NCBI GenBank assembly: GCA_009773415.1 | Contig: WSNO01000023.1 | Location: 1-42,071, forward strand | Reading direction: 5' to 3' | Source of the DNA: Nitrospirota bacterium | GTDB taxonomy: Bacteria > Nitrospirota > Thermodesulfovibrionia > Thermodesulfovibrionales > Dissulfurispiraceae | Length of the DNA stretch: 42,071 bases | Shown: piece after piece, positions 6,492-36,746 of the stretch | How positions within the stretch are numbered: position 1 is the stretch's first letter | How the letters are laid out: the number at the start of each line of letters is the position of its first letter | Notes under the pieces: generated by a model | Told to the model about the DNA's origin: nothing | Seen by the model: the letters and a program-made list of their open reading frames with translations, nothing else | The model's database searches: none | Position numbers and translations under genes: made by a program

Positions 6492-7385
6492 GTGTCAGCA
6501 ACAATCATTGACGGAAAGAAAATTGCACAAGACATCAAAGACAGCCTCGTTGACCGTATTCAGGATCTGAAATCCGCAGGCGTCGAGCCCTGTCTGGCGG
6601 CAGTCCTTGTCGGCGACGACCCAGCCTCGCAGAAATATGTCGCCTCAAAAGGGCGTGTATGCGAGAAGCTCGGCATGCGCAGACTGGTGCATCGCCTTCC
6701 GGCGGCGACGACCCAGCAGGAGCTGCGCGATCTCATCGACAGCCTGAATGCCGACCGGTCGGTGCACGGCATTCTCGTCCAACTGCCGCTGCCGCGCGGT
6801 CTTGATGCAAAAGAGATCATGTCCCGCATATCGCCCGAAAAGGATGTGGACGGGTTCAGCCCCGTTTCGCTCGGCAATCTGGTGCTGGACCGCCCCGGAT
6901 TTCTGCCCTGCACGCCGCACGGCGTCATGAAGATTCTCGAATCGGCCGGCGTCGATCCGTCCGGCAAACATGCGGTGGTCGTCGGCAGAAGCATTATTGT
7001 GGGCAAACCGCTCGCGCTGCTGCTTTTGCGGAAAAACGCCACGGTCACCGTCTGCCACAGCAAGACTGCCGACCTGCCTGCCGTATGCCGCACCGCCGAT
7101 ATTCTCTGCGTCGCAGTCGGCAAGCCCGGTCTGGTCACCGCCGACATGGTGAAAGAAGGCGCCGTCGTGATAGACATCGGCATCAATGTCACTGCTCAGG
7201 GAGAGCTGACCGGCGACGTCGATTTTGCGTCGGTGCGCCGCAAGGCGGTGATGATTACGCCCGTTCCCGGCGGCGTCGGTCCGCTGACCATAGCATTGCT
7301 GATGCACAACACCGTGCAGGCGGCCGGCCAGCAGAGCAGCCGGCGATTCATGACGGCAGACGCATATGCCGGCGACGGCAATTAA
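6492..7385 (+). CDS. folD: Methylene-THF dehydrogenase / methenyl-THF cyclohydrolase
   Basis: Bifunctional enzyme interconverting methylene-, methenyl- and 10-formyl-THF. Visible are the catalytic pair Tyr49 and Lys53 in QKYVASKGRVCEKLG, QLPLPRGLD, the signature PEKDVDGFSP, VVGRSIIVGKPLALLL of the nucleotide-binding domain, and PVPGGVGPLTIALL near the C terminus. The GTG start at 6492 follows GAGAGGTG. The protein runs about 10-15 residues past the usual end (SSRRFMTADAYAGDGN). It is followed after 10 bases by metV. Confidence 0.96.
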   Translation: MSATIIDGKKIAQDIKDSLVDRIQDLKSAGVEPCLAAVLVGDDPASQKYVASKGRVCEKLGMRRLVHRLPAATTQQELRDLIDSLNADRSVHGILVQLPLPRGLDAKEIMSRISPEKDVDGFSPVSLGNLVLDRPGFLPCTPHGVMKILESAGVDPSGKHAVVVGRSIIVGKPLALLLLRKNATVTVCHSKTADLPAVCRTADILCVAVGKPGLVTADMVKEGAVVIDIGINVTAQGELTGDVDFASVRRKAVMITPVPGGVGPLTIALLMHNTVQAAGQQSSRRFMTADAYAGDGN

Positions 7386-7395
7386 GAGGAGCGCC

Positions 7396-8064
7396 ATGAT
7401 AATCACGAAAAAACGCGATACGAAAGCGGTCCTGGAAAACATACGGAACTACCGGCGCATTTTTCTTGTCGGCTGCGGCGAGTGCGCCGCGCTCTGCGCC
7501 ACCGGCGGTCGGCCGCAGCTGGAGCAGATGAAAGAGCTTCTTCATGCTCACGGCAAGGAAGTTACCGGCATGCACCTCGCAAAAACAGGATGCCAGGTGC
7601 TCGGAACCAAACGCGAGCTCAGTCCGCACAAAGAAGCGATCGCTGCTGCAGACTGCATTCTTGCGCTGTCGTGCGGCGCGGGCGCCCAGACCGTCGTTGA
7701 GCTGAATGAGGACAAACCGGTCTGTTCCGCCAACGACAGCATGTATCTGGGCAACATGACCCGCCACCAGGTCTTTGATGAGCGCTGCTCCATGTGCGGC
7801 GAGTGCATACTCGACAAGACGGCCGGCATCTGTCCGGTGACGGCCTGTCCGAAAGGCATTCTCATCGGCCCGTGCGGCGGCGTTGCAGACGGCAAATGCG
7901 AAGTGAGCCCCGACCTGCCGTGCGTCTGGATCAGAATCTACGAACGCATGAAAAAACTGGACCAGCTCGACGAGTTCAGCGCCTCCGTGCCGTCTCCCAA
8001 AGACTGGTCCAGGGGCGCCAGGCCGCACAACGGAAACGCGAAAGAGCCCAAAAACTCACGATGA
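7396..8064 (+). CDS. metV: MetV, zinc/iron-sulfur partner of methylene-THF reductase
   Basis: The 222-residue protein matches the C-terminal-domain family of methylene-THF reductase known as MetV in acetogens, where it forms a complex with MetF. It is rich in cysteine: C27, C30 and C34 in VGCGECAALC, then C131, C134, C137, C146, C151, C160 and C168 in ERCSMCGEC and following. This pattern fits bound metal or Fe-S clusters. The start at 7396 has a strong SD (AGAGGAG), and the stop overlaps the metF ATG (ATGA). Known MetVF enzymes do not depend on NADPH alone; some work with further electron-bifurcating subunits, none of which are seen here. Confidence 0.88.
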   Translation: MIITKKRDTKAVLENIRNYRRIFLVGCGECAALCATGGRPQLEQMKELLHAHGKEVTGMHLAKTGCQVLGTKRELSPHKEAIAAADCILALSCGAGAQTVVELNEDKPVCSANDSMYLGNMTRHQVFDERCSMCGECILDKTAGICPVTACPKGILIGPCGGVADGKCEVSPDLPCVWIRIYERMKKLDQLDEFSASVPSPKDWSRGARPHNGNAKEPKNSR

Positions 8065-8948
8065 GTCTGCACAAGGCATTTGAAAAGGGCAAATTCGTCG
8101 TCACTTCAGAAATAGGCCCGCCCAAGGGAACCGACACAGACGACATCAGGCGACTTGTCGATCTTTACCGGGGGGCCGTCGATGCAATCAACGCCACCGA
8201 CAACCAGTCCGCCGTCATGCGCATGAGCTCGCTCGCCGTCTGCAAAATCATCCTTGAGCGCGGCGCCGAGCCTATTCTTCAGATGACCTGCCGCGACCGC
8301 AACCGCATCGGCCTGCAGTCCGACCTGCTCGGAGCGCACGCCCTCGGCATCAGAAACGTCGTCGTCATGACCGGCGACCACGTGCTCGCCGGCGACCACA
8401 GACAGGCCAAGCCGGTGTACGATGTGGAATCGGTCCAGCTTCTGAACATAATCAACTCCCTCAACAACGGCGCCGACATGGCGGGAAATGCACTGAAGGG
8501 AAACACCTGTTTTTTCGCCGGAGCGGTCGTCACCCCCGAGGCGAATCCGCTGGAACCGCAGCTCATGAAATTTGCCAAAAAAATACAGGCCGGCGCAAAG
8601 TACTTCCAAACTCAGGCGATTTATGATATAACTATGTTCAAAGTTTTCATGGGCCATGCGCGCAGGCATCAGGCAAAAGTGCTTGCCGGCATCGTGGTCC
8701 TGAAAAACGAGCGCATGGCGAAGTACCTGAATGACAACGTTGCGGGCATCCGCGTGCCGCAGGATCTTATAGCGGAACTCGCGGCCGCGCCGAACAGGGA
8801 AGAAAAGCAGAAGGCCGGCATACGCATAGCGGCGCGCCACATACGCCGGCTGCGCGAAGAACGCATCTGCGACGGGGTGCACATCATGGCAATCGGCATG
8901 GAAGGCAGCGTTCCGGCAATTATGCAGCAGGCTGGACTACTCGAATAA
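8061..8948 (+). CDS. metF: Methylenetetrahydrofolate reductase
   Basis: Flavoprotein reducing 5,10-methylene-THF to 5-methyl-THF. The 295-residue TIM barrel begins MSLHKAFEKGKFVVTSEIGP, where Glu17 is the likely catalytic acid. It contains the DAINATDNQSAVMRMSSLA region, NVVVMTGDH of the FAD site, and KYFQTQAIYD near the substrate site. The frame is open far upstream inside metV, but the ATG at 8061 overlaps the metV stop by four bases, the expected coupling for a MetV-MetF complex. The pilC gene follows after 22 bases on the same strand. Confidence 0.94.
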   Translation: MSLHKAFEKGKFVVTSEIGPPKGTDTDDIRRLVDLYRGAVDAINATDNQSAVMRMSSLAVCKIILERGAEPILQMTCRDRNRIGLQSDLLGAHALGIRNVVVMTGDHVLAGDHRQAKPVYDVESVQLLNIINSLNNGADMAGNALKGNTCFFAGAVVTPEANPLEPQLMKFAKKIQAGAKYFQTQAIYDITMFKVFMGHARRHQAKVLAGIVVLKNERMAKYLNDNVAGIRVPQDLIAELAAAPNREEKQKAGIRIAARHIRRLREERICDGVHIMAIGMEGSVPAIMQQAGLLE

Positions 8949-23393: not shown

Positions 23394-23510
23394 GCTCTTC
23401 GGAGACATGCGAATTCACCGAAGCTCCGTCTTTGTGGTAACCTAATTCACTGAGCATTGCTCTGCTTTGTGCGCTCTGCCGCATCCGACAGATTATTCCA
23501 GGGGGATTGC

Positions 23511-26500
23511 ATGCACCGTATCGGCCTTGATGTCGGGTCCGTCGCCGTAAAGGCGGTGGTTTTCGACGGCGACACCAAAAATATTCTGAAGCGGGTTTAC
23601 CAGCGCCATCTCGGGCATCCTATCGAGGTCTGCGGCGCGGTGCTGCGCGATCTGCTTGCCGCATACCCTGCAGCCGCCCTTTCGGTGACCGGCTCGGCGG
23701 GCAAGTTTATCGCGGGCGCGCTGAACATCAGGCATGTCAACGAGGTCGCGGCACAAGCGTATGCCGTGCGGAAACTCTATCCGCAGATTCAGACGATTAT
23801 CGAGCTGGGCGGCGAGGATGCGAAGCTCATTATTCTGGAAGACGGCAAGATCCGGGACTTCTCGCTGAATTCGGTCTGCGCGGCGGGCACCGGGTCTTTC
23901 CTTGAACAGCAGGCCGAGCGGCTGAAGCTCGGCATTGAGGAGTTCAGCGCCGTCGCCGAACGGTCGGAGCGGCCGTCGAAGATTGCGGGGCGCTGCAGCG
24001 TCTTTGCAAAGTCCGACATGATTCATCTGCAGCAGATCGCCACGCCGATGGAGGACATTGTGGCGGGGCTCTGTTTTGCGGTCGCCAGAAACTTCAAGGG
24101 CAGCATTGCCAAGGGCATAGAGCTGCGCCCGCCGGTGGCGTTTCAGGGCGGCGTTGCGGCAAACGCCGGCATGCGCCGCGCGTTTCAGGAAATTTTTCAT
24201 CTCGAAAAGCTGATCGTTCCGCCTGACTACGCTCTGATGGGCGCAATCGGCGCCGCGCTCAAAGACGCGGACGCGGGACGTTCGGCGCATATCGACATCT
24301 CGATGCTTGACGCTCTGCTGGCGGGCCGCCGTGTCGAGGAAGGCCAGGCGCGGCTGCTTGTTGACGGAGACGGCTTTACCGACCGCCACCTGAAACAGCA
24401 GGATTCGGGGGTCGGTGTTGCGGCAGCTAAAGACGGACGCGGTGCGGCCACCGGACGGGAAACGCTGATAACCGCCTATCTGGGGATAGACATCGGCTCC
24501 ATCAGCACGAATGTCGCGGTTATAGACGAACAGGGCAATCTCCTCGCCAAGCAGTACCTGATGACTGCCGGTCGGCCGCTGGAGGCGGTGAAAACGGGAC
24601 TGGCGGACGTAGCCGCCGAGGTTGCCGGGCTGGTCGACATCGCGGGCGTCGGGACGACCGGTTCGGGCCGCTACATGATTGCCGACTTTGTGGGCGCCGA
24701 CGTGGTGAAAAACGAGATTACCGCGCAGGCGACGGCGGCGATTTCGATAGACCCTGCGGTGGACACCATTTTTGAGATCGGCGGCCAGGACTCCAAATTT
24801 ATTTCCCTCCGGGACGGCATCATCGTTGACTTCGAGATGAACAAGGCGTGCGCCGCCGGCACCGGTTCGTTCATCGAGGAGCAGGCGGACAAGCTCGGCA
24901 TTTCGGTGAAAGATGAGTTTGCCGGACAGGCTCTGCACGCCTGCTCGCCGTGCCATCTCGGAGAGCGCTGCACCGTCTTTATGGAAAATTCGCTCATGGC
25001 GAACCTGCAGCGCGGCGCGCAGAAGGACAACCTGCTCGCCGGGCTCGCATACTCGATTGTGCAGAACTACATCAACCGCGTCGTGGCGGGCCGGTCGGTC
25101 GGCTCGCATGTCTTTTTCCAGGGGGGCGTGGCGTTCAACAAGGCGGTTGTCGCGGCGTTCGAAAAGTATCTCGGCACGCCCGTCACCGTGCCGCCGAACC
25201 ACGACGTGACGGGGGCCATCGGCATGGCGCTGATAGCGCGGCAGACCATGAAGGAACGGCCGGGCGCGAAAACGCAGTTCAAGGGATTTACAGCGTCCCA
25301 GCGGCCGTATGACATCAAGTCGTTCGAGTGCAGGAGCTGCGACAACGTCTGCGAGATAAACCGCGTGCGCATCGAAGGCGATGAAGGGTTTCTCTTTTAC
25401 GGCGGCAGATGCGAAAAATACGATGTCCGCCGCTCGCAGAAAGCAACCCTGCCGGACAACTTCCTCTTTCGCGAGCAGGCGCTCTGGAAAGCCCATGACG
25501 AGGGTGCCGATCCGGAAAAAGCCGTACCGTCCCGGCGGCCGAAGATCGGCATTCCCTATATCTTCACGTTTCACGATTTTCTGCCCTACTGGTCGACGTT
25601 TCTCCGGGAGATCGGTTTTGAGGTCGTCGTCTCTCCCAAAACGAACCGGCAGATTGTGAATGCCGGCGTCGAGAACGTGCTGTCGGAGGCGTGCTTTCCG
25701 GTAAAGGTTGCCCACGGACACAAGACGTGGCTGAAAAAGGCGGGAGTGGACGCGCTCTTCAGCCCGAGCTTCATCAACCTGAACACCAAAAAAGACGAGT
25801 ACCCGAACGGGCTGGTCTGCCCGTATGTGCAGACGATTCCCTACGTTACGAAGCTTGCCGTCGGCGGCATCAAAAATATCGCCCCGTCCATCAACCTCTC
25901 CTTGGGAGTCAGGACGCTGGCGAAAGAGCTCCAGAAGAGCTTTGCCGATTACGGCATTTCGCGCTCGCGGATTGAGAAGGCTCTCATAAAGGCGCAGGAA
26001 GCTCAGGATGCTTTCCGTGAGTCGATCAAGAGCCGCGGCGCCGCGTTTCTGAAGGAACTCTCTCTCGTGCGATCGGGGAACCGTTCCGCAATCTCCGACG
26101 AGCATCTGCGCGCCCTTCCGGCGGACCAGCCGGTGGTGGTGATTGTCGGGCGCGGGTACAACTCATTTGACATGGGCATGAACCTCGAGATTCCGAAGAA
26201 GCTCGCGCAGATAGGCGTGCTGTCGCTGCCGATGGACATGCTGCCGCTCCAGGACGTTTCGATCCGTGGAACATGGCCGCAGATGTACTGGCGCTCTGGG
26301 CAGAGAATTCTGAAAGCAGCCCGCTACATCCGCGAGACACCGGGACTGTACGCCATTTATATCGGCAATTTTTCGTGCGGCCCGGATTCGTTCATTCTCA
26401 AGTATTTCAAGGAGGAGATGGGCGACAAGCCCTTCCTGCATCTGGAGATTGACGAGCACAGCGCCGACGCCGGGGCCATTACGCGCTGCGAAGCCTTCAT

Positions 26501-27776
26501 TGACAGCGTTCAGCAGCAGCTCCGCGCGGCGGCAGGCCGGGACGACCATGCCCGCGTTGCGCTTTCGCACGCGCCTGCGGCTGTGCGGCAGAGCGGCATC
26601 AGGCAGCGGACATTCTACATTCCGCAGATGTCGGATCATGCGTTCGGCGTCGCCGCCGCTCTTGAGTCGTGCGGAGTGCCGGCGGAGATGCTGCCGCCTT
26701 CGGACCGCGCTTCGGTGGATCTCGGTCGCAAGTATGTTTCGGGAAAAGAGTGCTATCCATATCTGGTGACCGCGGGCGACATGCTCAAACGGGCGCTCGC
26801 GGCCGACTTCGTGCCGGAGCGTTCGGCGTTTTTCATGCCGTCGGGCTCCGGGCCGTGCCGCTTCGGCCAGTACAGTATTTCGCACCGGCTCATCCTCGAC
26901 AAGCTCGGGTTTGAGGACGTTCCCATCTTTGCGCCGAATCAGGATGTGGCCTTCTACGAGCATCTCGGCTCGATCGGGAAGGATTTCGCGCTGAAAGCGT
27001 GGAAGGGCGTCGTCGCGTATGAGCTGCTTACGAAATGCCTCCATGAGACGCGCCCCTATGAAGTGCACGAAGGCGATTCGGATGAGCTTTCACGTCGCTA
27101 TCATGAGAAAATTTATGCCGGCGTAGCGGCGAAAAACGGCAGCGTGGAGCCGGTTCTCGAGCAGATGCAGCGGGACTTTGCCGCAATCCCCCGCACCGGA
27201 GAGGAGCGTCCGCTCATCGGCCTTGTCGGAGAGATATTCGTGCGCTCGCACCGCTTCTCCAATGAGGAGCTGGTCCGGAAGATCGAGAGGCTGGGAGGCG
27301 AGGTCTGGCTCGCACCGATGGGGGAATGGATTTCGTACATAAACGCGATGGCATTCAGGAAAGCTTTGATTAAAAAAGATTTATCTGCTATTCTACAACT
27401 CTTTACGCAGCGGTTTTTCCAGCGGCGGATTGAGCACCGGTACACGCGCCATTTCGGCAAACTGCTGAAAACGGCGCATGAGCCGGAGCCGGAGGCGCTC
27501 TTCACCAAGGCGGCTCCGTATATCCACCACTCCTTCGAGGGGGAAACCATCCTGAGCGTCGGCAAGGCGGTCGATCTGATCGAAAAAGGCGCCGCGGGCA
27601 TCATCAACGCCATGCCGTTCGGCTGTATGCCCGGAACGATTGTTACGGCGATCATGAAAGGAATTGTGCGCGATTACGGGATACCGAGCATCAGCATCCC
27701 GTATGACGGGACTGAATCGCCCACGACCGACCTCCAGATAGAGGCGTTCATGGAGGCGGTGCAGAGCAAGAAGTAA
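23511..27776 (+). CDS. Giant CoA-enzyme activase fusion: two BadF/BcrA-type ATPase domains plus dehydratase-like domains
   Basis: 1421 residues. Two ASKHA ATPase domains of the 2-hydroxyacyl-CoA dehydratase activase family occupy about 1-260 (IGLDVGSVAVKAVV, CAAGTGSFLEQQAERL) and 320-590 (LGIDIGSISTNVAVID, CAAGTGSFIEEQADKL). A cysteine-rich linker near 606 (FECRSCDNVCEI, then GGRCEKYD) follows, then a DUF2229-like region from about 677 (PYIFTFHDFLPYWSTF) and an HgdB-like C-terminal region to 1421. Single-domain relatives are Fe4S4 ATPases that push one electron at low potential to a dehydratase. Such large fusions are widespread in anaerobes, but their substrate is unknown to me. The ATG at 23511 follows AGGGGG; no partner gene is adjacent. 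Confidence 0.9.
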   Translation: MHRIGLDVGSVAVKAVVFDGDTKNILKRVYQRHLGHPIEVCGAVLRDLLAAYPAAALSVTGSAGKFIAGALNIRHVNEVAAQAYAVRKLYPQIQTIIELGGEDAKLIILEDGKIRDFSLNSVCAAGTGSFLEQQAERLKLGIEEFSAVAERSERPSKIAGRCSVFAKSDMIHLQQIATPMEDIVAGLCFAVARNFKGSIAKGIELRPPVAFQGGVAANAGMRRAFQEIFHLEKLIVPPDYALMGAIGAALKDADAGRSAHIDISMLDALLAGRRVEEGQARLLVDGDGFTDRHLKQQDSGVGVAAAKDGRGAATGRETLITAYLGIDIGSISTNVAVIDEQGNLLAKQYLMTAGRPLEAVKTGLADVAAEVAGLVDIAGVGTTGSGRYMIADFVGADVVKNEITAQATAAISIDPAVDTIFEIGGQDSKFISLRDGIIVDFEMNKACAAGTGSFIEEQADKLGISVKDEFAGQALHACSPCHLGERCTVFMENSLMANLQRGAQKDNLLAGLAYSIVQNYINRVVAGRSVGSHVFFQGGVAFNKAVVAAFEKYLGTPVTVPPNHDVTGAIGMALIARQTMKERPGAKTQFKGFTASQRPYDIKSFECRSCDNVCEINRVRIEGDEGFLFYGGRCEKYDVRRSQKATLPDNFLFREQALWKAHDEGADPEKAVPSRRPKIGIPYIFTFHDFLPYWSTFLREIGFEVVVSPKTNRQIVNAGVENVLSEACFPVKVAHGHKTWLKKAGVDALFSPSFINLNTKKDEYPNGLVCPYVQTIPYVTKLAVGGIKNIAPSINLSLGVRTLAKELQKSFADYGISRSRIEKALIKAQEAQDAFRESIKSRGAAFLKELSLVRSGNRSAISDEHLRALPADQPVVVIVGRGYNSFDMGMNLEIPKKLAQIGVLSLPMDMLPLQDVSIRGTWPQMYWRSGQRILKAARYIRETPGLYAIYIGNFSCGPDSFILKYFKEEMGDKPFLHLEIDEHSADAGAITRCEAFIDSVQQQLRAAAGRDDHARVALSHAPAAVRQSGIRQRTFYIPQMSDHAFGVAAALESCGVPAEMLPPSDRASVDLGRKYVSGKECYPYLVTAGDMLKRALAADFVPERSAFFMPSGSGPCRFGQYSISHRLILDKLGFEDVPIFAPNQDVAFYEHLGSIGKDFALKAWKGVVAYELLTKCLHETRPYEVHEGDSDELSRRYHEKIYAGVAAKNGSVEPVLEQMQRDFAAIPRTGEERPLIGLVGEIFVRSHRFSNEELVRKIERLGGEVWLAPMGEWISYINAMAFRKALIKKDLSAILQLFTQRFFQRRIEHRYTRHFGKLLKTAHEPEPEALFTKAAPYIHHSFEGETILSVGKAVDLIEKGAAGIINAMPFGCMPGTIVTAIMKGIVRDYGIPSISIPYDGTESPTTDLQIEAFMEAVQSKK

Positions 27777-28899: not shown

Positions 28900-28916
28900 A
28901 AGGAGTTCAATCAGAT

Positions 28917-29933
28917 ATGTCTTTGAATTTGCCTCCGTTTTCCACAACAGGCATCGGCAGCGTCCCGTTTGCCGACCCTGCTGACGCGTGCCGCCTGATA
29001 GCGGAGACGTTCGACATTGCGTTCTGGCCGCAGATGGCGCGGCGCTCGCACCGTGAGGGAATGATTGCCCAGTGGGCGGAAGGGATGCCGTACATACGCT
29101 TTGATGACGCGGCGGAGCGCGTCTGGGTGGAGCGCGACGGCACGGATCAACTCACCCCGTTTTACGAATTCTGCACGGATGACGCACGCATGGCCGTTAC
29201 CGAGTCCGCTGCCGCCGGTCTGCACGCCTTTACCCGCTTGATGGGGGCGGAGCGCCGTCCGGCGGTGAAAGGACATGTCACCGGTCCCCTCACCTTCGCG
29301 CTCGGCCTGAAGGACGAGCAGGGCAAGCCCGTCTACTTCGACGAGGAGCTTCGCGAGATAACCTCGATGCTTCTTCAGGCGAAGATTCGCTGGCAGGTGG
29401 ACCGGCTCAGGCAGTCTGCCGACCGGGTGATTATCTTTCTGGATGAGCCGATTTTTTCGGCAATCGGCAGTTCTTCGTACCTTGGGGTGGAAGACGCTGA
29501 AGTTGAGCGCCTGCTGGCTGATTCGGTCGCCGCTGTACAGCGGGCGGGAGCAATCGCGGGAGTGCATTGCTGCGGCAAGTCGGACTGGGCGCTGGTCATG
29601 CGCGCAGGAACAGACATCCTCAGCTTCGACGCCTTTGAGTATTTTGAAACTCTCGCGCTGTATACCGACGACCTCCGGGCGTTTTACGAGCGCGGAGGAC
29701 TCCTTGCGTGGGGCATCGTGCCGACATCGGACCTGATCGGCGACGCCGACGAGAAAGCGGTAGCGGACTCCATGCGCCGTAAGGTTGACCATCTCTGCCG
29801 GCACCTGCCGGAAGAGGCGGTGCGGCGGCAGAGCCTTATTACGCCGTCATGCGGCACCGGCTCGCGCACTGCCGCAGAAACCGAAAAAATCTTCCGCATC
29901 ATTCGCTCTGTCAAAGCGGCGATGGGGCAATAG
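28917..29933 (+). CDS. Core methionine synthase (MetE C-terminal domain type, folate-independent)
   Basis: 338 residues forming only the catalytic barrel of cobalamin-independent methionine synthase. Zinc ligands are evident: His217 and Cys219 in AGVHCCGKSDW, Glu241 in FDAFEYF, and Cys312 in TPSCGTGS. The N-terminal part (GIGSVPF, then FDIAFWPQMARRSHREGMI) matches stand-alone core-MetE proteins, which take the methyl group from a methylated corrinoid protein rather than methyl-THF. The N-terminal half of classical MetE, which helps bind folate, is absent. With MetV-MetF in the same window, methyl-corrinoid chemistry is likely. UROD-like enzymes share the fold but lack this zinc set. Confidence 0.8.
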   Translation: MSLNLPPFSTTGIGSVPFADPADACRLIAETFDIAFWPQMARRSHREGMIAQWAEGMPYIRFDDAAERVWVERDGTDQLTPFYEFCTDDARMAVTESAAAGLHAFTRLMGAERRPAVKGHVTGPLTFALGLKDEQGKPVYFDEELREITSMLLQAKIRWQVDRLRQSADRVIIFLDEPIFSAIGSSSYLGVEDAEVERLLADSVAAVQRAGAIAGVHCCGKSDWALVMRAGTDILSFDAFEYFETLALYTDDLRAFYERGGLLAWGIVPTSDLIGDADEKAVADSMRRKVDHLCRHLPEEAVRRQSLITPSCGTGSRTAAETEKIFRIIRSVKAAMGQ

Positions 29934-29957
29934 TCCGTGGGCGGCAGACGTTTGACA

Positions 29958-30587
29958 ATGGGACTCTTCCTCTCGTTTGAGGGAATCGAAGGCAGCGGCA
30001 AATCCACGCAGGCGCGGCTGCTTGCGGAATCGCTCGCGTCGGAGGGGTATGATGTCGTGCTGACGCAGGAACCCGGCGGGACAGCCATAGGCGAACGGAT
30101 TCGGGCGCTCCTGCTCGACCCCGCGCATACCGAGATGTGCCCTGCCGCCGAACTGCTCCTCTACGCCGCCGCCCGCGCGCAGCACCTTGAGCAGAAGATA
30201 CGTCCGGCGCTTGCGAGGAATGCCGTCGTCATTACCGATCGGTTCAGCGACTCGACCGTCGCCTATCAGGGCTATGCCCGCGGCATCGACCGCGGACTGC
30301 TCGACTCGGTCGATGCTGTTGCAACCGGGCGTCTCCGGCCGGATGTGACGATTCTCTGCGATCTGCCAGCAGAGGCCGGACTGCAGAGAAATCGGGAAAT
30401 CAACAAGCGCGACCGCCTTGAGCTCGAGGCGGTCGCGTTTCACCGGAAAGTCCGGGAGGGCTTCCTGCAGCTTGCTGCTGCGGAGCCGGAGCGGGTTCGT
30501 ATTATCGACGCCGGTCAGCCGGTGGACGCGGTTGCGGCGGACGTTGCCAGGATTGTGACGGAACGGCTATGGGCTTTGACAAAATAA
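29958..30587 (+). CDS. tmk: Thymidylate kinase
   Basis: Phosphorylates dTMP to dTDP. The 209-residue protein starts MGLFLSFEGIEGSGKSTQAR with the P-loop at about 8-16. It has TQEPGGT, the DRFSDSTVAYQGYARG segment, and a REINKRDRLE lid. The frame is also open from GTG 29937, but the family begins just before LFLSFEG. It overlaps holB by 19 bases, the classic tmk-holB arrangement. Confidence 0.94.
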   Translation: MGLFLSFEGIEGSGKSTQARLLAESLASEGYDVVLTQEPGGTAIGERIRALLLDPAHTEMCPAAELLLYAAARAQHLEQKIRPALARNAVVITDRFSDSTVAYQGYARGIDRGLLDSVDAVATGRLRPDVTILCDLPAEAGLQRNREINKRDRLELEAVAFHRKVREGFLQLAAAEPERVRIIDAGQPVDAVAADVARIVTERLWALTK

Positions 30588-31504
30588 GAGGGCATGATCG
30601 CCCGATCCGCATTCTGCAGGGCACCGTCAGGAAGCAGCGTGTCCCCTCGGCCATGCTTTTCTCGGGAGCCGCCGGCATCGGAAAATGCACGACTGCCCGC
30701 GCCTATATTCAGGCGCTCATGTGCCCTTCTGCGCATGATGCCGAAGGGTGCGGCGCCTGCAGCTGCTGCAGGCGCATTCTGAGCGCTTCGCATCCGGACC
30801 TGCTTTGGATCCGGGAGGAAGGCGGGGAAATCAAGGTTGAAGCAATCCGCTCCATCGAAGAGTTTCTGTCGAGGAAGCCGCTGGAAAGTCCGGTCAAGGC
30901 GGTGCTGGTTGATGGGGCTGAGTGCATGAATATAAGCGCCGCCAATGCGTTTCTCAAAACACTCGAAGAGCCGCCGTCCGCAAGCCTGATTATTCTGGTT
31001 ACGCCGAACCCTGAATCGCTGCCCGATACGATTCGTTCGCGCTGCTTTCAGGTCAGGTTTTCTCCGCTTTCGGCTGACCAGTGCAGGGAGATTCTTGCTG
31101 CTGTCCGGCCTGAGGCTCTCACCGACCAGACCATCAGTCTGGTTATGGGCAGGCCCGGGTTTGCGATTGCCGGAAACCCGGCGGCCGACGCGCAGCGCTG
31201 CATGGACCTCTGCGAGGCGATGCTGCGCGGCGACACAACAGAAGCATGGGAAGACCGGGAAGCAATGGAAGCGTGGCTCGATCAGGTGCCGCTGATTTTC
31301 CGTGACCTCGTTGTGGCGCATACCGGCGGAGCCGGTTCTATTCTGCCGCGCCACCGGCTTTCTGCTCCTGACGTTGAGACAGTGCTGCAGACATGGCAGG
31401 AGGTGCAGCGCGTGACGGCACGGACCGGTTTTCATCTGAACAGGTCTATTACCTGGCATTATGTGGCTGAATTGATGAGAAGCTCTATCAGGCGCACCGA
31501 GTAA
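30569..31504 (+). CDS. holB: DNA polymerase III, delta-prime subunit
   Basis: Clamp-loader subunit of 311 residues. A Walker-A-like GAAGIGKCT, a cysteine cluster (CPS near 52, then CGACSCCRRI) as in the zinc module of the delta-prime/gamma family, LEEPP after NAFLKTLEE, and the SRC motif in RSRCFQV are all visible. The C-terminal third is weakly conserved, as usual. It lies between tmk and ricT in an order seen in many bacteria. Confidence 0.92.
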   Translation: MGFDKIRGHDRPIRILQGTVRKQRVPSAMLFSGAAGIGKCTTARAYIQALMCPSAHDAEGCGACSCCRRILSASHPDLLWIREEGGEIKVEAIRSIEEFLSRKPLESPVKAVLVDGAECMNISAANAFLKTLEEPPSASLIILVTPNPESLPDTIRSRCFQVRFSPLSADQCREILAAVRPEALTDQTISLVMGRPGFAIAGNPAADAQRCMDLCEAMLRGDTTEAWEDREAMEAWLDQVPLIFRDLVVAHTGGAGSILPRHRLSAPDVETVLQTWQEVQRVTARTGFHLNRSITWHYVAELMRSSIRRTE

Positions 31505-31540
31505 GAAGTCAATATACAGGAGTCAGAAGTCAAGCAGGAG
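31505..31540 (+). repeat. Short AGAAGTCA-type intergenic repeat
   Basis: After the holB stop the sequence contains AGAAGTCA, AGGAGTCA and AGAAGTCA in close succession before the ricT SD. Similar AGAAGT-rich text follows the activase gene at 27777, suggesting a recurrent intergenic micro-repeat of this genome. Confidence 0.4.
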
Positions 31541-31546
31541 GTTTTC

Positions 31547-32488
31547 ATGTCCGATATTGTCAGCATCAGGTTCAAGACATGCGGCAAAATATATGACTTT
31601 GCCTCGGAAGGCATTGAAATAGCGGAAGGCGATCTCGTTGTGGTGGAGTCGGACTTCGGTCTGAACATTGCCAAGGTAATGCGCGTGCTTCCGTCCGGAG
31701 CCTCGGCAGACCGCGAGCTGAAGCATGTTCTCCGGCGCGCAACGGCGGAAGATCTGCAGCAGAGGGAACAGAACAAGGCTCTTGGGCAGGAAGCGAAGCT
31801 CTATTGCAATGAGCGCGTGATGGCCCGCGGCCTCCCCATGAAGCTTATTGCCACGGAATCCACGCTCGACAGAAAGCGGGTTGTCTTCTATTTCACGGCC
31901 GAAGGGCGCATAGACTTTCGCGAGCTGGTCAAGGACCTGGCGGCGAAGTTCAAAACACGCATTGAGATGCGCCAGATTGGCGTGCGCGATGAGGCGAAAC
32001 TTGTCGGCGGACTCGGGGCATGCGGCAGAGAGCTCTGCTGCAAGACGTTTCTCACCTCGTTTGAGCCGATTTCGATCCGCATGGCAAAAAAGCAGGAGAT
32101 GGTGCTGAACGTCGGAAAGCTCTCCGGCCTCTGCAGCAGGCTCATGTGCTGCCTTCGCTATGAATTCGACACCAAGGGGCAGCCTGCGGGAATTTCCGGG
32201 ATTGAAGTTGAGGCTGAACATGAGTCGCCTGCCCCGGTCATGGGAACAGTCGAAGCGCTCCGGCCGCCTCCTGAAAAGCGTGATCGGCGTAAAGAGAAGC
32301 AGATGCCGGCGAAGGCGTCAGAACCGGTTCCGGAAGAGCCGGCGGATATCGACCCGGAGCCGGTGGAGGATGTTGCCGGAGAAGAGAGCCCGGGGATCGT
32401 TGACCCCCTGGCAGCGGCGCAACAGTCTGACGAGAACAAGCAGCGCGGCAGACGCCGCCCGCGAAGAAGGAGACGCAATAAAAAATGA
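31547..32488 (+). CDS. ricT: PSP1-domain protein RicT
   Basis: 313 residues. The PSP1 domain lies at about 1-200: VSIRFKTCGKIYDF at the start and KTRIEMRQIGVRDEAKLVGG in the middle. The cysteine pattern GACGRELCC then LSGLCSRLMCCLRYE matches Fe-S binding in the Ric (YaaT) complex that tunes RNase Y in Bacillus; its role in other phyla is less known. The last about 100 residues are Pro/Glu-rich and end in a basic run (RRRPRRRRRNKK), which may bind RNA or membranes. Start is supported by AGGAGG. The stop overlaps metG (ATGA). Confidence 0.88.
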   Translation: MSDIVSIRFKTCGKIYDFASEGIEIAEGDLVVVESDFGLNIAKVMRVLPSGASADRELKHVLRRATAEDLQQREQNKALGQEAKLYCNERVMARGLPMKLIATESTLDRKRVVFYFTAEGRIDFRELVKDLAAKFKTRIEMRQIGVRDEAKLVGGLGACGRELCCKTFLTSFEPISIRMAKKQEMVLNVGKLSGLCSRLMCCLRYEFDTKGQPAGISGIEVEAEHESPAPVMGTVEALRPPPEKRDRRKEKQMPAKASEPVPEEPADIDPEPVEDVAGEESPGIVDPLAAAQQSDENKQRGRRRPRRRRRNKK

Positions 32489-34446
32489 ATACCTCTGAAC
32501 ACTTCTACATAACGACGCCGATTTATTATGTCAACGATGTCCCGCACATCGGCCATGCGTACACAACAATTGCGTGCGACATCATGGCCCGCTACAACCG
32601 GCTGCTTGGCCGTAAGGTGTTCTTCCTGACCGGAACGGATGAGCACGGCCAGAAGGTCGAAAAAGCCGCGCTGGAGCGCGGTCGCTCTCCGAAGGAGCAC
32701 GCCGATCTGCTGGTCGGCAATTTTCAGGATCTCTGGAAACAGCTCGATATCAGCAATGACGCGTTTATCCGCACCACCGACGCGCAGCATGTTGCCGTCG
32801 TCCAGCGTCTTTTGCAGCAGCTTTTCGATGCCGGCGAGATTGAGAAACGCTCTTACTGCGGCATGTACTGCACTCCGTGCGAGCGCTTCTGGACAGAGAA
32901 AGACCTTGTTGAGGGAAGCTGCCCCGACTGCGCGAGACCGGTCGACCGCATAGAAGAGGAAAACTATTTCTTCCTGATGTCGAAGTATCAGGAGCCGCTC
33001 GTCAGGCATATCGAGCAGACTAACCCTGACTACATTCTGCCGGAGTCCAGAAAAAATGAAGTGCTCGGCTTCCTGAAGTCGCAGCCGCTCGGCGACCTCT
33101 GCATTTCAAGACCGAAGGCCCGCCTTGCCTGGGGGATTCCGCTGCCGTTTGACGACCGGTACACCACCTATGTCTGGTTTGATGCGCTGGTTAATTATTA
33201 TGCCGCTGACACCTATCTTTCGCCCACCGGCAGGCCCGAGTGGTGGCCGGCAACACACCACCTCATCGGCAAGGACATCCTGACGACGCATGCCGTCTAC
33301 TGGTCGACCATGCTGATGGGGCTCGGGCTTGAGCTGCCGAGGAACATTTTTGCCCATGGCTGGTGGACTGTTGAAGGGAAAAAAATGTCGAAGTCCGTCG
33401 GCAATGTTGTTGATCCGGCGGCAACCGCAAAAAAATATGGGGTCGACGCGTTCCGCTACTTCCTGTTCCGCGAAGTGACCTTCGGGCTTGACGGCGATTT
33501 TTCGGAAGATGCGCTGACCCGCAGAATCAATACCGATCTCGCAAACGATCTGGGGAATCTGCTGAGCCGCTTCACCGCCATGGCTGAAAAGTATTTTGAT
33601 GGAGTCATCGGATTGCCGGGAGCATACGCCGCTTCGCCCGATGAACTGGTTGTGCGGTCGTACCGGAACGGTTTCGTCGTGGCGAGAAACCACGCGCACT
33701 GGGCGCGCCTGCGCTTCAATGACATTCTCGGCGGAATATGGGAAATCATCGCCGCGGGGAACAACTATATCGCGCAGACCGAGCCCTGGAAGCTCGCGAA
33801 AACAGATCCGGCGCATTTGAAAAACGTCCTGTTCAATCTCTGGAACGGCCTGCGGATTGCGTCAATGCTGCTCTATCCGTTCATGCCGGCGACGGCGGAA
33901 AAGATCTGGCGACAGATCGGCTTGCAAGAACTTTTGCCGGAAACGGCGTCGGCCGGAGACTCAATATGGACTGCCGGTTCCTGGATGCCTGAATACACCG
34001 TCCGCACAAGAAAAGGCGACCAGCTCTTTCCGCGGATAGAAAAACCGGCGGGAGAGATGAAAATTAAACAGAAGCGGGAGGCAAAGGAGAGCGAGGCGAT
34101 GCCGGAAGCGCCAGCACCGGGTCTGATCAGGATGGATGATTTTGCAAAAGTCGTGCTGAAGGTCGGCAAAATCGTGCAGGCTGAGCGGGTTGAGAAATCA
34201 AACAAACTTATCAAACTTCAGGTTGATACCGGAGAAGAGCGCCAGATTGTCGCCGGCATCGGCAAGGCATATGCTCCCGAGGACTTGGTCGGAAAAAAGA
34301 TAGTCGTCGTCGCGAACCTGGAGCCCGCTAAGCTCATGGGCGTGGAGTCAAACGGCATGCTTCTCGCTGCCACCGATGAAGAAGGCAGGCTCTCGGTTCT
34401 GATCCTCGATCGTGACGAAATCACCCAGGGCGCGCGGGTAAAATAA
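32485..34446 (+). CDS. metG: Methionyl-tRNA synthetase
   Basis: 653 residues of a class I synthetase. HIGH is at 21-24 (NDVPHIGHAYTTI), the zinc knuckle includes CGMYCTPCERFW and CPDCARP, and KMSKS is near 301 (EGKKMSKSVGN). A C-terminal tRNA-binding OB-fold (about 545-653) is fused, as shown by FAKVVLKVGKIVQAERVEKS and GIGKAYAPEDLVGKKI. That domain promotes dimerisation and tRNA binding. It is coupled to ricT by a four-base overlap and followed by radC after 11 bases. Confidence 0.96.
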   Translation: MNTSEHFYITTPIYYVNDVPHIGHAYTTIACDIMARYNRLLGRKVFFLTGTDEHGQKVEKAALERGRSPKEHADLLVGNFQDLWKQLDISNDAFIRTTDAQHVAVVQRLLQQLFDAGEIEKRSYCGMYCTPCERFWTEKDLVEGSCPDCARPVDRIEEENYFFLMSKYQEPLVRHIEQTNPDYILPESRKNEVLGFLKSQPLGDLCISRPKARLAWGIPLPFDDRYTTYVWFDALVNYYAADTYLSPTGRPEWWPATHHLIGKDILTTHAVYWSTMLMGLGLELPRNIFAHGWWTVEGKKMSKSVGNVVDPAATAKKYGVDAFRYFLFREVTFGLDGDFSEDALTRRINTDLANDLGNLLSRFTAMAEKYFDGVIGLPGAYAASPDELVVRSYRNGFVVARNHAHWARLRFNDILGGIWEIIAAGNNYIAQTEPWKLAKTDPAHLKNVLFNLWNGLRIASMLLYPFMPATAEKIWRQIGLQELLPETASAGDSIWTAGSWMPEYTVRTRKGDQLFPRIEKPAGEMKIKQKREAKESEAMPEAPAPGLIRMDDFAKVVLKVGKIVQAERVEKSNKLIKLQVDTGEERQIVAGIGKAYAPEDLVGKKIVVVANLEPAKLMGVESNGMLLAATDEEGRLSVLILDRDEITQGARVK

Positions 34447-35240: not shown

Positions 35241-35840
35241 ATGATCACACGTGCAGTCATCAGCGTATCGGACAAGACCGGAGTCGTTGAGTTCGCCCGG
35301 GAACTGGCGGCGCTCGGGGTCGAAATCCTCTCCACCGGCGGCACCGCAAAAGCGCTGCGCGAAGGAGGAGTCCCCGTCATTGAGGTGTCAAGCTATACCG
35401 GATTCCCCGAAATGATGGACGGTCGGGTAAAGACACTGCACCCGATGATTCACGGCGGGCTGCTCTACCGCAGAAAAAACGCAAGAGATGTTGAGGACTG
35501 CGCGCGGCAGGGAATCAAGCCGATCGACATGGTCGTCATCAATCTCTACCCGTTTGAGGCGACCATCGCGAAGCCGGATGTGACGTTTGACGACGCCGTC
35601 GAGAATATCGACATCGGCGGTCCGGCGATGCTGCGCGCGGCGTCCAAGAATTTTCAGGACGTCACGGTGCTCATCGACCCTGCGGACTATCGTCCGGTGC
35701 TGGACGAGATGAAGGCGAATGCCAATAGTGTCGGTGCTGCAACCAACCTCAGGCTTGCGCAAAAGGTGTTCGCGCATACGGGACGGTACGATTCGCTGAT
35801 TGCCGCGTATCTTGCCAAAACCATGGAACAAAGAGGATAG
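35241..35840 (+). CDS. purH: Stand-alone IMP cyclohydrolase (N-terminal half of PurH)
   Basis: 199 residues, all of the MGS-like IMP cyclohydrolase domain: [65 protein letters not shown]. It ends at [11 protein letters not shown], just where the AICAR formyltransferase domain starts in the usual 510-530-residue bifunctional PurH. The stop is followed by the next gene, with no leftover formyltransferase sequence, so this is a genuine split form rather than a recent truncation. The missing step (AICAR to FAICAR) must be encoded elsewhere, as a separate PurH C-terminal domain or PurP. Confidence 0.92.
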
Positions 35841-35849
35841 TCGGCGGAT

Positions 35850-36746
35850 ATGCGCTCCTTCAAGGAGATAAAGTCTCACTATTATTTCACCGATGAAGAT
35901 GTCCGCGCTCTGGTTTCGGTGCGTCAACTCATGATCGAGCAGGCAGGCCGCGCGATGGGCCGGGTTGACCAGTGGATTCAGAATCTGCCGGAAGCGGCTA
36001 AGCTGTTCAAGGGCGAAGAGCAGAAAAAGCATGTTGCCGCAATGCGCCAGCAGTGGTTTATCGGCCTGTTTTCCGGTGTCTATGACTCCAAGTATTTCGA
36101 AAAGCTCATCCGCATCGGGCAGGCGCACGTCAAATTCGGCATCGAAGCACACTTCATGAACCGCACCATCAGCATGGTGCGCACGCTCTGCATCGAAATT
36201 CTGCACCACAACGTTGAGGACGACGAAGAACGCACCCGCGTCTTCATCTCGGTCGAGAAGATCCTTGACATCAGCCTTGACGTCATTACCTCAAGCTACA
36301 TTGAAGAGGAGATGCGGAACTATTCGCCCGCCTACCGCGTAAAAAACCTGCTCGTGACATACACCGAAAAATTCGCTCAGGCGATGAACCTTGTGCTCGT
36401 TTTCGCACTCATCGGACTTACGATCGGGGTGGTCTGGCTCTTTGTGACCGATCTCATAAACATCACGAGCGACCCCAACTTTTCGCACGGGATCATCACC
36501 GCCCTCGGCTCCCTGCTGATACTCTGGGTCATGATTGAGCTGATGAACACCGAGATCAAGCACCTCAAGGGCGGCAAGTTCCGCATCAGCGTCTTTGTGG
36601 GCGTGGCGCTCGTCGCCTTTATTCGCGACACGATGATTAAGGCCTTGCGCCATGACAGCATGCACGAAATGTACTATCTCATCCCCCTTATTCTGACGCT
36701 GGGGGTCGTTTTCTGGCTCGTGACAAAATCGGAAGAGAGGAACTGA
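35850..36746 (+). CDS. Protoglobin-domain sensor fused to a PsiE-like membrane domain
   Basis: 298 residues in two parts. Residues 1-165 form an all-helical globin-coupled-sensor domain. The key segment is KLIRIGQAHVKFGIEAHF, where His93 in the pattern IGxxHxxxGI is the expected proximal haem ligand, and QWFIGLFSG precedes it. Residues 170-298 hold four hydrophobic helices with ILWVMIELMNTEIKHLKGG and VALVAFIRDTMIKAL, resembling the phosphate-starvation PsiE family. The product may be a membrane protein responding to O2, CO or NO. It sits nine bases after purH and five before purD, so it is cotranscribed with purine genes. Function is unknown. Confidence 0.8.
   Translation: MRSFKEIKSHYYFTDEDVRALVSVRQLMIEQAGRAMGRVDQWIQNLPEAAKLFKGEEQKKHVAAMRQQWFIGLFSGVYDSKYFEKLIRIGQAHVKFGIEAHFMNRTISMVRTLCIEILHHNVEDDEERTRVFISVEKILDISLDVITSSYIEEEMRNYSPAYRVKNLLVTYTEKFAQAMNLVLVFALIGLTIGVVWLFVTDLINITSDPNFSHGIITALGSLLILWVMIELMNTEIKHLKGGKFRISVFVGVALVAFIRDTMIKALRHDSMHEMYYLIPLILTLGVVFWLVTKSEERN

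Follow-up and report, generated by a model that had tools for sequence, protein, structure and literature searches.

Single-barrel methionine synthases, in which a MetE-like barrel stands alone with no folate half, are known in several forms, among them MesA, MesB, MesC, and MesD. The form closest to the protein described here is the core-MetE of Dehalococcoides mccartyi (Deobald et al. 2020, PMC7005905), which was named MesB by Price et al. (2021, PMC7857596). This enzyme has been modelled with zinc on His215, Cys217, Asp236, and Cys312 (Deobald et al. 2020, PMC7005905), and its aspartate is reported to stand in place of Glu665, with the Glu484 position variable in MesB (Price et al., PMC7857596). 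Furthermore, His122, part of an HxxG motif, was proposed to touch the cobamide or to replace its lower ligand (Deobald et al., PMC7005905), and the corrinoid protein CoFeSP was predicted to be the methyl donor (Price et al. 2021, PMC7857596). MesD, another member of the group, is described as needing MesX (DUF1852) and oxygen (PMC7857596).

The protein that we compare with these enzymes is encoded in a 42 071-nucleotide stretch of DNA from a Nitrospirota bacterium (contig WSNO01000023.1), referred to here as the window. Its gene, an open ORF with an ATG start at 28917..29933 on the plus strand, specifies 338 amino acids and is assigned as mesB, a core (single-barrel) methionine synthase, from a structural model and homology. 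The motif AAGGAG, 11 bases before the ATG (28900..28905, plus strand), is its probable ribosome-binding site. A match to the protein is held by 29 of the 31 genomes in its GTDB family, so the ORF is not a chance observation. Across a wider scan of contigs, 555 relatives were found and the best 80 were kept as named loci (L064-L143). Most of these best 80 of 555 carry the titles Nitrospirae, Nitrospirota, or Thermodesulfovibrionia, with Planctomycetota, Omnitrophota, Clostridia, Spirochaetes, Dehalococcoidales, and others also represented.

The gene order in the window is mesB-tmk-holB-ricT-metG. The tmk gene (29937..30587, plus strand; TIGR00041 above its cut-off) begins 3 bases past the mesB stop, and is followed by tightly spaced holB, ricT (PSP1), and metG on the same strand (30569..34446). 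Among the best 80 of the 555 relatives, tmk follows mesB at a distance of less than 200 bases in 45 loci, and holB, ricT, and metG are present in 39, 35, and 35, respectively; tmk-holB-ricT is a common housekeeping string. Upstream of mesB, the window encodes a 1439-amino-acid CoA-enzyme-activase protein (BcrAD_BadFG, DUF2229, HGD-D; 23457-27776, plus strand), and a match to this gene is present in 17 of the best 80 of 555 loci. A functional tie between it and mesB was considered and dropped, because a gene on the opposite strand sits between them in the window. Two other genes on the plus strand are of separate interest. A 199-amino-acid PurH-like protein (35241-35840) comprises the IMP cyclohydrolase (MGS) part and only the first 61 of the 311 positions of the AICARFT_IMPCHas model; the transformylase is apparently absent or encoded elsewhere. 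The single ORF at 35850-36746 joins a protoglobin domain to a PsiE domain, an unusual-looking pairing of haem sensor and membrane domain.

Analysis of the fold agrees with the claim of the initial annotation that only the zinc-barrel half of MetE is present. An AlphaFold2 model built from 34 homologs (pLDDT 93.7, pTM 0.92) contains one barrel and, unlike two-barrel MetE, no N-terminal folate barrel. The C-terminal halves of MetE match the model along its whole length (Z 24-25), and the best fold match is 3RPD, the single-domain methionine synthase MesD (Z 25.3, rmsd 3.1, 279 residues aligned). Chains of UROD and of a Methanosarcina mazei methyltransferase rank below these, at Z about 20, and function cannot be read from a common fold by itself. 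Since PF01717 does not match the protein, its description as a MetE half is based on the fold and on its relation to MesB; a Pfam search returned no family at E<=0.001. As a probe for the family, PF01717 was useless, with no match in the protein's own genome at E<=10 and matches in just 3 of 34 relatives at E<=0.01. Searching the PDB by sequence gave nothing with the single protein, and with a profile gave two chance-looking matches (E 0.07 and 0.76). The NCBIfam search gave 22.2 bits to the methionine synthase model PRK00957, below the cut-off of 258. This archaeal model is taken here to stand for MesA, from which the window protein is thus distinguished. An annotation gap is exposed by these results: a MesB protein can have no Pfam match at E<=0.001 and just a 22-bit match in NCBIfam.

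Direct comparison with Dehalococcoides-type sequences is more informative. BLASTP against three MesB proteins of this type gave 35-36% identity and 212-214 bits over 325-337 residues, and phmmer with those proteins as queries gave 214-216 bits. When all four proteins compared from the order Dehalococcoidales are included, the ranges become 35-37% identity, 207-214 bits (BLASTP), and 204-216 bits (phmmer). One query, from genome G487, scored 214.2 bits by phmmer; we take this genome to be that of D. mccartyi 195, the source of DET0516. The limits set for MesB relative to DET0516 are at least 130 bits in the results and 173 bits in the methods of the published account (Price et al. 2021, PMC7857596). 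The window protein lies above both, and is therefore MesB by the sequence criterion of Price et al.; this places it with methionine synthases, and not in a non-methionine clade. It resembles D. mccartyi MesB in length (338 versus 343 amino acids), in the His-Cys-Asp-Cys site, and in the HxxG histidine; the 343-amino-acid protein of genome G449 carries His122, His215, Cys217, Asp236, and Cys312 in the published numbering. A tree of 54 hand-chosen rows, made by a quick method with SH-aLRT support only, groups the protein with its own GTDB family (support 97, although the value is starred and the composition of the protein was flagged as unlike the rest) among Thermodesulfovibrionia sequences. 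Some variation within the wider family was also seen: several matches to Dehalococcoidia paralogs end short of the last zinc cysteine, one f25-family genome (G077; L057, L061) has a tandem pair of mesB-like genes separated by about 270 bases, and genome G108 also has two. The window protein very probably has methionine synthase activity.

The residues predicted to bind zinc could be placed by alignment. In the initial annotation, the ligands were given as His217, Cys219, Glu241, and Cys312. Three of these stand: His217 (29565..29567), Cys219 (29571..29573), and Cys312 (29850..29852) are invariant and align with His215, Cys217, and Cys312 of the characterised MesB. Glu241 is rejected because it is not conserved, being glutamate in 23 of 28 close relatives but in only 18 of the best 80 of 555 wider ones. 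The acidic residue present in all of them is Asp238 (29628..29630), which aligns with Asp236; all of these codons are on the plus strand. The set His217, Cys219, Asp238, and Cys312 is kept in 28/28 family members, 34/34 phylum members, and 80/80 named loci (best 80 of 555). These 80 loci were found by peptide patterns containing the HCCG or DEP motif, so the conservation of Cys219 and Asp176 among them is partly selected for, and that of Asp238 and Cys312 is not. Ser15 and Asp176, present in all of the best 80 of 555, were matched by eye to the MetE motifs IGS and DEP, and correspond to residues published as holding the amino acid. The equivalent of His122 is His120 (29274..29276, plus strand), a proposed cobamide contact. 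At this position, the best 80 of the 555 relatives have His in 53, Gln in 26, and Ala in 1; a role for this histidine as lower ligand of the cobamide cannot hold family-wide, because of the glutamine and alanine variants. The cysteine at position 219, found in 80/80 (best 80 of 555), also separates the protein from MesC, most of which are reported to carry histidine there (PMC7857596).

The source genome (2.46 Mb, 61 contigs, listed as 100% complete) was searched for other enzymes that could make methionine. The MetE model TIGR01371, which spans both MetE halves, had no match at E<=10, and PF02574, the zinc-homocysteine domain of MetH and BHMT, had none in the genome. The MetH model TIGR02082 matched one site only, the pterin-type domain of AcsE. 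Neither metH nor full-length metE was thus found, the check for which the initial annotation had called, and MesB seems to be the sole methionine synthase of this genome. HcyBio (PF01837), a route to homocysteine, also had no match in the genome. Genes for the supply of methyl groups were found. As had been proposed, MetV and MetF are both encoded in the window, as a PF12225 domain match at 7366-8064 and a PF02219 match in the ORF 7794-8948, alongside folD (6492..7385; domain search), which acts at an upstream step of the same one-carbon branch; all three are on the plus strand. Contig C15 carries acsB, acsC, acsD, and acsE together with a gene for a cooC-like ATPase. AcsB, AcsC, and AcsD each score above an NCBIfam cut-off, and AcsE gives 250 bits to CODH_ACS_meth, under the model cut-off of 370. 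The Wood-Ljungdahl pathway of this bacterium suggests that it is an anaerobe.

Like Dehalococcoides, therefore, the window organism has a genome with CoFeSP in which no MetE or MetH was found. The two differ in the origin of the methyl group. Dehalococcoides is described as lacking MetF and AcsE (PMC7857596, PMC7005905), and its methyl group therefore comes from acetyl-CoA. The window genome has MetV/MetF and AcsE, and methyl-THF can therefore feed CoFeSP. In the route that we propose, MetV/MetF would make methyl-THF, and AcsE would move its methyl group to the cobalt of AcsC/AcsD (CoFeSP). Zinc held by His217, Cys219, Asp238, and Cys312 would bind homocysteine as a thiolate, by analogy with the chemistry of MetE and MesB, and attack of this thiolate on the methyl-cobalt of AcsC/AcsD would allow MesB to yield methionine. 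The overall path would run from methyl-THF through AcsE, CoFeSP, and MesB to methionine. Since it has no folate-binding half, MesB is not expected to use methyl-THF directly as MetE does. The net reaction would be that of MetH, with the parts in separate proteins: AcsE as pterin methyltransferase, AcsC/AcsD as corrinoid protein, and MesB as the zinc-homocysteine barrel. Because the genome can draw methyl groups from methyl-THF, AcsE, CoFeSP, and MesB would do in pieces the job that MetH does in one chain. The homocysteine barrel of MetH, in contrast, belongs to a different family, and MetH is present instead of MesB in one genome of the same genus (G015).

The distribution of these proteins was surveyed in 395 genomes of the phylum, using the window protein, PF02574, and PF03599 (CdhD) as queries. 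Matches to the window protein were found in 179 genomes, to PF02574 in 202, and to CdhD in 221 at E<=0.001, 181 of the last being strong (E<=1e-40). MesB and the MetH-type homocysteine domain nearly exclude each other across the phylum: 173 genomes have MesB only, 196 have PF02574 only, 6 have both, and 20 have neither. In two of the overlaps (G166 and G173), the homocysteine-domain matches to the MetH model lie in ORFs of 366 and 347 amino acids, too short for MetH. Strong CdhD matches occur in 168 of 178 MesB genomes, compared with 13 of 217 others; one genome, G119, whose MesB match has an E-value of 7e-4, was left out of this count. Ten MesB genomes fall short of a strong CdhD match: in six the match is weak, and in four (G020, G067, G177, and G223) there is none at E<=1e-3. 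G177, with a listed completeness of 99%, has neither a CdhD nor a PF02574 match. There are also five f24-family genomes with CoFeSP and the PF02574 domain but no MesB, and eight with CoFeSP and neither of the two. Fisher tests gave p about 1e-79 and 1e-81 for the survey associations, values that overstate the evidence as the genomes are related. Separately, three loci (L183 in G385, L184 in G351, and L185 in G397) have matches of about 240 residues to the B12-binding domain of MetH that contain 2-3 internal stop codons; we propose that these MetH fragments are pseudogenes, frameshifts, or recoded genes.

Because relatedness inflates the survey p-values, more weight is put on genome G015, which belongs to the genus of the window organism. 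It has no MesB match and a weak CdhD match (2e-11), and encodes an 803-amino-acid MetH with homocysteine, pterin, and B12 domains, adjoining a 231-amino-acid protein resembling the activation domain, an arrangement that amounts to a split MetH. A switch from MesB to MetH may thus be seen inside one genus. The MetH contig is 10 263 bases long, with a G + C content of 0.577 over its first part compared with 0.563 for the window, and it may be misbinned.

Taken together, it is highly likely that the window gene is a mesB whose product, a core methionine synthase, is fed via CoFeSP, with no second methionine synthase found in the genome. The supply by a corrinoid protein that the initial annotation had put forward is thus supported, by the assignment to MesB and by the acs genes, with the donor deduced from these. 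That CoFeSP is the main donor in vivo is likely, although a methyl group from some other corrinoid protein, or from a free methylcobamide, would make CoFeSP incidental. The four MesB genomes with no CdhD match would fit such a donor, as would the location of mesB in Nitrospirota, mostly beside tmk and not beside acs genes, and the characterised enzyme is reported to take free methylcobalamin in vitro (Deobald et al., PMC7005905). The reported KM for methylcobalamin is, however, about 240 uM (PMC7005905), and the co-occurrence of MesB with strong CdhD points to CoFeSP, making a different donor improbable. Gene context in other phyla argues in the same direction. In four loci (L102, L104, L115, and L137, titled Clostridia twice, Tritonobacter, and Spirochaetes), mesB is followed by cooC within 200 bases, and in L105 (Latescibacterota) cooC lies 1 kb away; acsB is also present in L105, L115, and L137. 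In Dehalococcoidales, mtnA and mtnP lie beside mesB in L140. In the genome taken as Dehalococcoides (G487) mesB adjoins mtnP and mtnA, with ahcY and metK near, which also counts in favour of the preferred reading. The four gene names in G487 are ones that we presume from the translations, and they agree with the account of Deobald et al.

Two further readings concern the reaction itself. The protein could instead belong with the MtaA/MtbA-like or UROD-like methyltransferases of this superfamily and act on a thiol other than homocysteine, and the alignment of UROD and M. mazei chains and a weak match to mtaA_cmuA in 3 of 34 relatives lend themselves to this idea. It is nevertheless very improbable, in view of the higher rank of MetE and MesD, the identity to MesB together with the residues at homocysteine-binding positions, the lack of any other methionine synthase found in the genome, and the near-exclusion with the MetH-type domain. 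Least probable of all is that methyl-THF is used after all, by a single-barrel MetE or by a split MetE with a separate folate-binding subunit. The presence of MetV/MetF in the same window would suit this arrangement, but TIGR01371 finds nothing in the genome, the characterised MesB is reported to have used methylcobalamin only (PMC7005905), and an aspartate ligand is what has been described for MesB (PMC7857596). A MesB fed via CoFeSP remains the preferred reading.

Enzymes of this kind, and the donor predicted for them, were already published in 2020-2021; what is added here is the phylum-wide near-exclusion and the within-genus switch, neither of which was found in the papers searched. In that literature, no report of activity was met for any Nitrospirota MesB, and the terms Nitrospir-, Thermodesulfovibrio, MetV, and tmk do not occur in the main text of PMC7857596. 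At the scale of the phylum, the near-exclusion and the switch support the published prediction that links MesB with CoFeSP. If this is true, methionine synthesis is tied to the Wood-Ljungdahl pathway in a large and mostly uncultured group of bacteria. A broader proposal, for and against which we are evenly divided, is that in Nitrospirota of the Thermodesulfovibrionia type MetVF, AcsE, CoFeSP, and MesB together constitute a MetH in pieces that is the sole source of methyl groups for methionine and SAM. CoFeSP would hence be essential even where carbon is not fixed, and loss of the pathway would be possible only after a gain of metH, as may have happened in G015.
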